NCBI GenBank assembly: GCA_016209155.1
Contig: JACQWU010000210.1
Coordinates: 1 to 5,216, forward strand
Direction of reading: 5' to 3'
Origin: Candidatus Desantisiibacteriota bacterium
Lineage (GTDB): Bacteria > JACRDZ01
DNA: 5,216 bases
Made by a program: the position numbers and the translations under genes. This document shows positions 1,174 through 5,117 of the stretch, in pieces. How positions within the stretch are numbered: position 1 is the first letter of the stretch; each line of letters starts with the position of its first letter. The notes beneath the pieces were generated by a model. That model was not told the DNA's origin and ran no database searches. It saw nothing but the letters and a program-made list of their open reading frames with translations.

Positions 1174-1200
1174 TATAGGGGACGGTGGTGCAGATAGTGC
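1174..1200 (+). repeat. Left terminal inverted repeat of the RAYT element
   Basis: The outer 18 bp are tataggggacggtggtgc. Over 27 bp it matches the reverse complement of 2257-2283 at 25 positions; the two mismatches lie in the inner 4-bp stretch between the outer 18 bp and a shared GCACT. Confidence 0.9.
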
Positions 1201-1229
1201 TTGACAAGAACAAGAGGAAATAGTAAGAT
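1201..1229 (+). promoter_or_regulatory. Possible transposase promoter just inside the left repeat
   Basis: A consensus TTGACA (1201-1206) begins at the first base after the inverted repeat. Seventeen nt later comes TAAGAT (1224-1229), only 7 nt before the ATG at 1237. If used, transcription would start at or next to the start codon and give a leaderless or nearly leaderless mRNA. The -10 match is weak (4 of 6). Confidence 0.35.
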
Positions 1230-1236
1230 AACAATT

Positions 1237-2247
1237 ATGCCAAGAGGACCAAGATTAGACGCTCCGGGAACTTTGCATCATGTAATTGCAAGGGGAATAG
1301 AGCGAAAAGAAATATTTAAAGACAAGGTTGATTATCAGGACTTTCTGCAAAGGCTGGAGTTAGTTGTAGATCAATGTAATTTAGAAATCTATGCCTGGGC
1401 ATTAATTCCTAATCATTTTCATCTTTTGATAAGAACAAAAGATACCCCGCTATCAAAAGCTATGCGAAAGCTTATGACAGGATATGCTGTAAATTTCAAT
1501 AGAAGACATCAAAGAAATGGATACTTATTTCAAAATCGATATAAATCAATCTTGTGTGAAGATGAACCATATTTAATGGAACTTGTAAGATATGTACATC
1601 TAAATCCATACAGAGCCGGAATAGCGAAAAGTTTAGAAGAACTTGACAGATATAATTGGAGCGGACATTTAGCACTTATCGGCAGGATCGAAAGAAAATG
1701 GCAAAACACGGAAGAAATATTATTGCGATTTAGTGAATATAAAAATAAAGCAATAATAAATTATAGAAAATTTATAGAAGAAGGTAAAGAACAGGGTAGG
1801 AGGACGGAATTTACAGGCGGAGGGTTAAAAAGGAGCGCAGGCGGATGGTTCGAGGTATTGGCTTTAAAGCGTCAAAAATGTGAAATGGCTTCAGATGCAA
1901 GAATTTTAGGCAGAGGAGAATTTGTGGAGGAAATATTAAAAGAAGCGGAAAAAAAAGAATTGGAAACATTAAGATTAAAGAGAAAAAAAATTGGAATAAA
2001 AGAACTATGTGAAAAAGTAATTAAGTTCTATAAAATAGAGATGTCCGAATTGACTTCAGGAAATTGCCGAGAAACAATAATAAAGGCAAGGAGAGAAACA
2101 TCTCATATAGCAGTTAAAAAACTTGGATTAAGCGGAGCAGAAGTTGCGAGATATTTAGGTGTAACTGCATCGTGCATAAATAGAATTGCTGGAAAAGGAG
2201 AGATAAGTAGAGAAGGAGAAATTATATTAAGGAGTCTTGATATTTGA
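1237..2247 (+). CDS. REP-associated tyrosine transposase (Y1/HUH) with C-terminal HTH
   Basis: This is a 336-residue single-strand DNA transposase of the TnpA_REP (RAYT) type. Residues 1-25 (MPRGPRLDAPGTLHHVIARG onwards) are the classic N-terminus. The HUH metal motif is NHFHLLI (H60, H62). Y83 in TGYAVNFNRRH is the likely catalytic tyrosine that joins covalently to DNA. GYLFQNRYKSI (95-105) and RYVHLNPYRAGI (118-129) are conserved family signatures. Residues about 180-250 are a basic linker. Residues about 250-336 form a helix-turn-helix tail (SGAEVARYLGVTASCINRI) resembling the DnaA C-terminal domain, likely to recognise the element's ends. I chose ATG 1237 because it restores the family N-terminus; an in-frame TTG at 1201 would add 12 atypical residues. 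GAGG at 1214-1217 is too far away to be a good ribosome site. All catalytic motifs appear intact, so it may be active. Confidence 0.93.
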   Translation: MPRGPRLDAPGTLHHVIARGIERKEIFKDKVDYQDFLQRLELVVDQCNLEIYAWALIPNHFHLLIRTKDTPLSKAMRKLMTGYAVNFNRRHQRNGYLFQNRYKSILCEDEPYLMELVRYVHLNPYRAGIAKSLEELDRYNWSGHLALIGRIERKWQNTEEILLRFSEYKNKAIINYRKFIEEGKEQGRRTEFTGGGLKRSAGGWFEVLALKRQKCEMASDARILGRGEFVEEILKEAEKKELETLRLKRKKIGIKELCEKVIKFYKIEMSELTSGNCRETIIKARRETSHIAVKKLGLSGAEVARYLGVTASCINRIAGKGEISREGEIILRSLDI

Positions 2248-2256
2248 GAATGTAAT

Positions 2257-2283
2257 GCACTTTCCGCACCACCGTCCCCTATA
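2257..2283 (-). repeat. Right terminal inverted repeat of the RAYT element
   Basis: It lies 10 nt after the transposase stop codon and ends in gcaccaccgtcccctata, the exact complement of the left end. An identical copy occurs at 2500-2526 at the end of the neighbouring remnant. Confidence 0.9.
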
Positions 2284-2288
2284 ACCGA

Positions 2289-2490
2289 CGAATTAACTTC
2301 CGGAAATTGTAGAGAAATAATAAAAAAAGCAAGGAGAGAAACAGCTCATATAGCGGTTAAAAAACTTGGATTCAGTGGAGCGGAGGCAGCGAGATATTTA
2401 GGTGTAACTGCATCGTGCATAAATAGAATTGTTGGAAAAGGAGAAATAAATTCAGAAGGAGAAATTATATTAAGGAGTCTTGATATTTGA
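2289..2490 (+). pseudogene. 5'-truncated RAYT transposase, C-terminal HTH domain only
   Basis: This reads DELTSGNCREIIKKARRET onwards to GEIILRSLDI and a TGA stop, the counterpart of residues 270-336 of the intact transposase. About half of the codon differences are synonymous (for example ttg/tta, tgc/tgt, cga/aga). The two copies therefore diverged while coding was still selected, rather than arising by a very recent tandem duplication. No start codon or ribosome site precedes it, and the HUH and tyrosine motifs are missing. Confidence 0.85.
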
Positions 2491-2528
2491 GAATGTAATG
2501 CACTTTCCGCACCACCGTCCCCTATAAC
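2289..2528 (+). mobile_element. 3' remnant of a second, diverged RAYT element
   Basis: From 2289 the sequence repeats 2046-2285 at a constant offset of 243 bp without gaps. The coding part differs at about 20 of 202 positions, while the last 75 bp (2454-2528 against 2211-2285), including the end repeat, are identical. The left end and more than three quarters of the gene are absent. It abuts the intact element through only a few unmatched bases (2286-2288). Confidence 0.85.
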
Positions 2529-2551
2529 GCGCACCACCGTCCCCTATAACG
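2508..2551 (-). repeat. Perfect 22-bp tandem repeat of the RAYT right end
   Basis: Two adjacent identical 22-bp units (2508-2529 and 2530-2551) each contain gcaccaccgtcccctata. A third match with one difference lies at 2265-2286. The second unit is a solitary end sequence with no transposase attached, like a REP-type element left by or mobilised by the RAYT. Confidence 0.85.
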
Positions 2552-3959: not shown

Positions 3960-5117
3960 ATGAATAAAATCAAATTGCCAAAAAATTTTGTTAGTAAATA
4001 CCCTCATAAGTTTTCAAAAGGTAAACATGAATTTTTATGCGGTCAGCGTATTTTACCCGAACCTATAACAGGGAAGGAAAATTTTCCTGATCTTATGGAC
4101 AGGGTATTTCTTGCATATAATGCCGGACGTCTTCAGGAAGGGTGCAGACTTTTTACCGAGAAGATGCTTGCTCCCGATGTTACAGTCGGGATGACTCTTT
4201 CAGGCGCTCTTACACCGGCAGGTCTTGGCTGTTCATCTGTTATTCCGCTTATTAAAGCGGGTTTTGTGGATTGGATAATCTCAACCGGCGCAAATCTTTA
4301 TCATGATTTACATCACGCGCTCAACCTGCCGCTTTTCCGCGGGACACCGTTTGTTAAGGATAAAGACCTGAGGAAAGCAGGTGTTGTGCGTATTTATGAT
4401 ATACATTTTGATTATAACGATGTATTAATGGTAACCGACCATATTTTAAGACAAATTTTACTTCAGGGCGAATTTCAGCGCGAGATGGGAACATCAGAGC
4501 TCCACTTTTTATTAGGTAAATACTGCGCTGAATTTGAAAAGCAGACAGGTATGAAAGATGTATCAGTTCTTGCGGCCGCATACCGTGCAGGAGTTCCGTG
4601 TTTCTGCCCTTCCCCGGGTGATTCAACAATTGGTATGAATATTGCCGGATTGGAATTGCGTGGTTTTAAGCTTCGCATAAATCCTTCACGCGATGTAAAT
4701 GAGACAACTGCAATTGTACTGGATGCAAAACACAGCGGCCAAAAAAGTGGAGTGCTTTTGATAGGGGGGGGCTCACCTAAAAATTTTGCTCTGCAGACAG
4801 AACCTCAGCTTCAGGAAGTACTGCGTATAAAAGAAGAAGGCCATGATTTTTTTCTTCAAATTACAGATGCCCGTCCGGATACAGGAGGTCTTTCCGGAGC
4901 AACTCCTCAGGAAGCAGTAAGCTGGGGGAAAGTGAATCCGGATCAGCTTCCCGATGCAATCGTATGCTATACCGATTCGACCATAGCACTGCCGTTAATC
5001 ACACATTATTCACTGGCACGGCATAAAAAGAGAAAACTTAAACGTCTTTATGACAGGCTCCCTGATCTTATAAAAATGATTACAGATGAGTACTGGAAAC
5101 ATAATAAAATATTATAA
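3960..5117 (+). CDS. Deoxyhypusine synthase-family protein, probably polyamine (homospermidine-type) synthase
   Basis: This 385-residue protein has the NAD-dependent aminobutyl-transferase fold of deoxyhypusine synthase (DHS). Recognisable segments are [12 protein letters not shown] (79-90), [13 protein letters not shown] (107-119), [14 protein letters not shown] (212-225), [11 protein letters not shown] (266-276) and [16 protein letters not shown] (309-324). K324 corresponds to the lysine that carries the aminobutyl imine in human DHS, and D221 to an active-site aspartate. Compared by eye with the human enzyme, His288 is Asn275, Asp243 is Met226 and Glu137 is His115. These changes, and the lack of eIF5A in bacteria, argue against hypusine formation. 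The DHS-like enzyme SpeY of Anabaena makes homospermidine, and this may do the same. The start has AGGAG (3948-3952) at 7 nt. A G8 run at 4764-4771 encodes the GGG motif. Family call is firm; substrate is inferred. Confidence 0.9.

Follow-up and report, generated by a model that had tools for sequence, protein, structure and literature searches.

The window, a whole contig of 5216 bp from a 352-contig draft assembly (3.08 Mb, 79% complete), contains an intact TIRYT element whose right end is followed by two additional units, each composed of a few host flank bases and a portion of the element. Such "stuttered" ends recur across the relatives of this element and start at nearly one point of the host flank. 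We assign a probability of about 0.5 to the reading, drawn from sequence comparison, that the TIRYT transposase cuts host DNA approximately 7 nt outside the end and rejoins it after a variable extension or exchange, which would generate the outward stutter of the right end.

Architecture of the Locus

The locus consists of the intact element, a 243-bp unit, and a 22-bp unit, placed in this order and in one orientation. The layered arrangement described in the earlier note, i.e., an intact element, a 3′ remnant, and an end unit positioned head to tail, was confirmed by the repeats, the ORF, and the alignments. The intact element begins with the left terminal inverted repeat (TIR) TATAGGGGACGGTGGTGCAGATAGTGC (1174–1200, plus strand), in which the GGGGACGG core starts at 1178. 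It encodes a TIRYT transposase of 336 aa (1237–2247, plus strand; PF01797 (Y1_Tnp), E = 2.6e-12) and is closed by the right TIR (2257–2283, minus strand), followed by the flank TATAAC (2280–2285). The inverted arms 1174–1206 and 2251–2283 extend over 33 nt with 88% agreement, and their outer 27 nt (1174–1200 and 2257–2283) pair at 25 of 27 positions. Folding of the element ends gave no significant hairpin, so that the earlier description of 27-bp inverted repeats in place of hairpins holds.

The 243-bp unit (2286–2529, plus strand) is composed of the last 67 transposase codons in frame with their stop codon (coding part, 2287–2490), a 9-bp spacer, and the end, which includes a TIR at 2500–2526 and the flank TATAACG at 2523–2529. 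Its protein piece aligns with residues 270–336 of the intact protein at 87%, and a direct repeat between 2046–2285 and 2289–2528 was detected at 92% identity (TRF score 826). The outermost 22-bp unit (2530–2551, minus strand) contains the TIR start (2530–2544) and the flank TATAACG (2545–2551), forming an exact 22-bp tandem CGCACCACCGTCCCCTATAACG at 2508–2551. This unit is identical to the preceding end, yet incomplete, as its share of the TIR is 15 nt, counted from the GGGG core (19 nt if TATA is included), next to 7 nt of flank (shift 22, flank 7, prefix 15). When read in the direction from flank to element, the locus is written as CGTTATA plus 15 nt, CGTTATA plus ~237 nt, and (CG)GTTATA plus the intact element. 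An Rfam search of the window gave no match.

Outside the element, a conserved block of ~36 bp, AAATTTCTTGACAACCCTATTTTTATGTGATTAAATTA, was observed at 2576–2625 of the window, ahead of the PNPOx gene. It occurs at 12 other sites in the genome (G000 contigs C320, C81, C302, C144, C334 (two), C291, C209, C34, C141, C41, and C278) and at one site in another genome of the phylum (G003:C4). The presence of TTGACA, a conserved 17-nt spacer, and TTAAAT suggests that this block may be a promoter with a built-in operator, which would define a regulon. Positions 3960–5117 encode a member of the deoxyhypusine synthase family (PF01916, E = 2e-67), an observation from an undersampled phylum that was represented by four genomes in the analysis. 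On the minus strand, an ORF at 79–641 matched PterinBD-DUF4346 (E = 4e-15) and is overlapped by a second minus-strand ORF; it is possibly a frameshifted or decayed gene.

Transposase and Element Class

The element is a TIRYT ("TIRtron") of TnpAREP subclass 2.1, a known but little-studied type. Its transposase contains the HUH motif N59-H60-F-H62, Y119 located within RY(V/I)HLNPxRA, and a C-terminal DnaA-like HTH, and the N-H-x-H motif, the tyrosine, and NPxRA are retained almost throughout 12 aligned relatives. The Bac_DnaA_C/HTH extension was detected for 11 of the 12 aligned members (best E = 2.1e-7) and weakly for the window protein (E = 0.011), whose structure model also matched the DnaA domain IV fold. 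The predicted structure comes closest to 4er8, E. coli TnpAREP in complex with a REP (E = 7.6e-7); ISDra2 and IS608 rank next.

According to excerpts of Di Nocera et al. 2013 (PMC3733652), a TIRYT/TIRtron has a RAYT-kin Y1 transposase between long TIRs carrying a GGGG-type motif, and these TIRs are also present in solo, dimeric, or clustered form. The present element shares the Y1 transposase, the long terminal inverted repeats, and the GGGG-type motif, whereas its motif GGGGACGG agrees with the GGGGWSAS given in those excerpts except at position 7; the relatives have GGGGTCAG. Nearly all relatives possess 16–29-nt inverted ends that start with GGGGACG (GGGGACGnTG), with GGGGTCA found in the more distant ones. 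The combination of a Y1 core with a C-terminal DnaA-like HTH, and a gene without an adjacent REP, is shared with TnpAREP subclass 2.1 as portrayed in excerpts of PMC6006769.

The RAYT/REPtron and BIME systems resemble the element in their HUH fold, for which 4er8 is the closest solved structure, and in the NPxRAG motif (PMC2817692, PMC8266576). They are characterized by hairpin REPs with GTAG, which are dispersed in hundreds of copies, and by one gene that is not mobile, whereas neither hairpin nor amplification was found here. Assignment as a strict RAYT/REPtron was rejected on the basis of the score against the curated RAYT model NF047646 (67.9 bits for the window protein, below the 80-bit cut-off), the lack of palindromic GTAG-type REPs, and the low abundance of the end. 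The IS200/IS605 elements (IS608 and ISDra2) similarly use HUH/Y1 catalysis, which is predicted here, and create no target duplication; however, their hairpins are subterminal and their left end differs from the right, in contrast to the inverted repeats of the present element and the symmetrical behavior of its two ends. An ssDNA circle intermediate and cleavage at a short target are further characteristics of IS200/IS605. Membership in IS200/IS605 was rejected on the ends, since inverted repeats are present and subterminal hairpins are absent.

In the host genome (79% complete), four exact copies of the end were detected, all of them in the window; a single diverged copy stands solo on a different contig, where it precedes a putative TetR-family gene. 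The search for the 18-bp end proposed in the earlier note hence gave one diverged copy beyond the locus and no further exact copies in the genome, and only two single-mismatch sites were obtained for this 18-mer in 192 other genomes. REP-like amplification of the end in the genome was rejected, because reversed-pattern controls were equally frequent at 3 mismatches. A single match to a viral contig looks fortuitous, as the surrounding sequence is without a transposon end. The comparison with a RAYT generating REP clusters accordingly found no support in this genome, considering the non-hairpin ends, the sub-cut-off score, and the confinement of the end essentially to one locus. For the empty site that the earlier note proposed to look for, the right flank was compared with the remaining three genomes available from the phylum, and no homologue was detected apart from a dispersed short motif.

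Stuttered Ends across the Relatives

Among 109 non-redundant elements collected by one profile search, between which kinship was not fully removed, 23 of 213 ends (10.8%) carried a tight tandem duplication that bridges host flank and element, as compared with 27 of 16,350 control positions (0.17%). The thresholds were fixed when the pattern was already visible in some of the loci, and the 213 ends comprise those loci plus newly fetched ones. The duplications were located on the left side in 11 cases and on the right in 12. A stricter first test, for which an exact 13-mer had to span the boundary, was positive at 13 of 147 ends and at 3 of 14,800 control positions. Controls were matched for base composition only through a set of GGGNNC positions in the same loci, of which 1 of 1873 carried a perfect 13-mer. 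Perfect tandems with a period of 10–60 were further located for 204 ends; 24 of 28 were centered within 50 bp outside the core with a sharp peak in the first 25 bp, and none lay within 300 bp inside. The end-recombination at one site suggested in the earlier note is thus supported, as part of a family-wide pattern.

Each unit is composed of 6–10 nt of host flank and a variable stretch of the element's end. Where the core recurs outside, the flank-match lengths are bimodal, being either 0–3 (unrelated) or mostly 5–10 with a mode of 7–8, while the prefix reaching into the end is 15 and ~237 nt in the window and 2–37 nt elsewhere. The clearest case was observed at the left end of L166, located in a single-contig 5.0 Mb genome, which reads CTAAGTA plus ~8 nt, ATAAGTA plus 37 nt, ATAAGTA plus 27 nt, and then the intact end. 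All four of these units start with TAAGTA, so that the start is constant and the inner end is variable. The stutter was also detected in two finished records, NZ_LR134433.1 from Legionella adelaidensis and NZ_CP154629.1 from Acetoanaerobium noterae, and with a 20-bp unit in the paralogue located in the genome of the window (L007). Its occurrence in single-contig and finished records shows that the stutter is no product of assembly. Judged by their sequences, the two units of the window have the same construction as these stutters, one of them being unusually long. The stutter across TIRYT relatives is a new observation; a description of it was not found in the open-access literature, as represented by excerpts of TIRYT and RAYT papers, including those of PMC3733652 for the flank-plus-end stutter and of PMC6006769 for end duplications.

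Replication slippage or misaligned repair may also be considered, in which a G-rich end, perhaps bound by the transposase, stalls the fork and the nascent strand slips back without any catalysis. Such slippage agrees with the units being short tandem duplications, with a 1–5 nt overlap at some junctions, and with the frequent termination of prefixes at GGGGTCA. However, the overlap is 0–1 nt at most junctions, the control GGGNNC positions of the same loci were duplicated far more rarely than the ends, and the units start at a set distance in unrelated flanks with varied inner ends. We thus regard slippage as a rather unlikely source of the stutter.

Two side observations were made on these loci. 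Eleven elements exhibited an inverted similarity of 7–14 nt between the left and right host flanks (~1.5 expected; flanks of 107 TIRYT elements), which suggests palindromic insertion sites or, for some copies, longer ends. In the 5′ flank of the transposase gene of L021 (MGUA01000007.1), two ends lie in inverted orientation at a distance of ~80 bp, and this pair resembles a small non-autonomous element or a REPIN-like dimer.

Origin of the 243-bp Unit

The intact copy and the remnant differ at 22 nt in their coding parts and agree completely over the 38 nt that follow the stop codon. Half of the 22 differences are non-synonymous against 74% expected without selection (P = 0.012 in a test of modest power), and a distant outgroup, L025 (about 70% nucleotide identity), assigned 11 changes to the remnant and 7 to the intact copy with 4 unresolved. 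As a dead duplicate of the neighboring element is not expected to show such differences, the coding part of the long unit was probably derived from a second active copy; the power of the test and the distance of the outgroup make this likely rather than proven. The earlier interpretation of this unit as a diverged piece of another element is hence favored.

These differences also bear on a history of repeated independent insertions at one target, in which two successively older elements were truncated from the inner side and the intact copy was added beside them. The silent excess among the 22 differences is consistent with it, the changes on both lineages indicate that two copies evolved separately, and the order of intact copy, part, and scrap suits such layering. 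It requires, however, independent truncations that each retained the same 6–7 flank bases between units. Furthermore, no target-site duplication beyond that of shuffled flanks was detected for 107 elements, and a coding-length remnant is present in this element only (1 of 109), whereas short units are common. Repeated insertion, proposed in the earlier note, is on its own an improbable explanation and does not account for all units starting at the same few flank bases.

In an assembly artefact, reads from two copies of the element, or from two strains, would have been merged where they share the 38-nt end, and the draft state of the genome with a window that is one whole short contig leaves room for such an error. 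Against this, the junction requires reads over TATAAC/CGACGAATT, and numerous assemblies made independently, some of them single-contig or finished, show the same architecture. Given the 22 differing coding positions between the two copies and the recurrence of the architecture in such records, a local misassembly, which the earlier note had also raised, is considered very improbable.

Proposed Mechanism

The preferred reading, cutting and rejoining by the transposase, starts from the observation that the units begin at nearly one flank point, ~6–10 nt outside the GGGGWC core, with a varying inner reach. This recurrent start in the relatives implies that the stutter probably marks the cut-and-rejoin site of the enzyme. 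The HUH/tyrosine transposase would cut the strand 5′-flank-GGGG… on the 5′ side of the core, at a distance of about 7 nt, and remain attached to the 5′ end of the cut flank. The freed 3′-OH may then be extended through the end, or swapped with a second cut strand, before the strand is rejoined to the same 5′ end, so that each round would add one unit of flank and end prefix. The two ends would act alike, and the long unit could arise from strand exchange between two elements or from later replacement of the intact copy.

Several observations count against this reading. Characterized TnpAREP requires CT or CA at cleavage, whereas the bases around the putative cut showed no consensus. The flank length varies from 5 to 12 nt, at times shifting by 2 nt within one array, and the prefixes cluster at 6–7 nt, so that in many cases the inner end could be fixed as well. 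No other unit of such a size as the 243-bp unit was seen among the 109 elements, and the divergence of this unit is not predicted by simple copying of the adjacent end. In favor of the reading, the related TnpAREP enzymes were reported to cut 5′ or 3′ of the REP, near but not in it, leaving a 5′-phosphotyrosine and a reusable 3′-OH, and to perform strand transfer in vitro (PMC8266576). Nunvar et al. proposed priming from the 3′-OH for BIME growth and reported, for four cases, that a rayt 3′ end had been captured between REPs of a neighboring repeat cluster, which provides a precedent for the 243-bp unit (PMC2817692).

The stutter would accordingly represent the sequence footprint of a reaction, and it predicts the position of the cut, the equivalence of the two ends, and the addition of one unit per round, all of which are open to in vitro testing with oligonucleotides. 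We tentatively speculate that TIRYTs repeatedly cut host DNA at a fixed short distance outside their ends and append units of flank and end by extension of the 3′-OH or by exchange of strands, and that such one-ended amplification could be a general Y1 route that seeds solo ends, clusters resembling those of REPs, and captured parts of genes.
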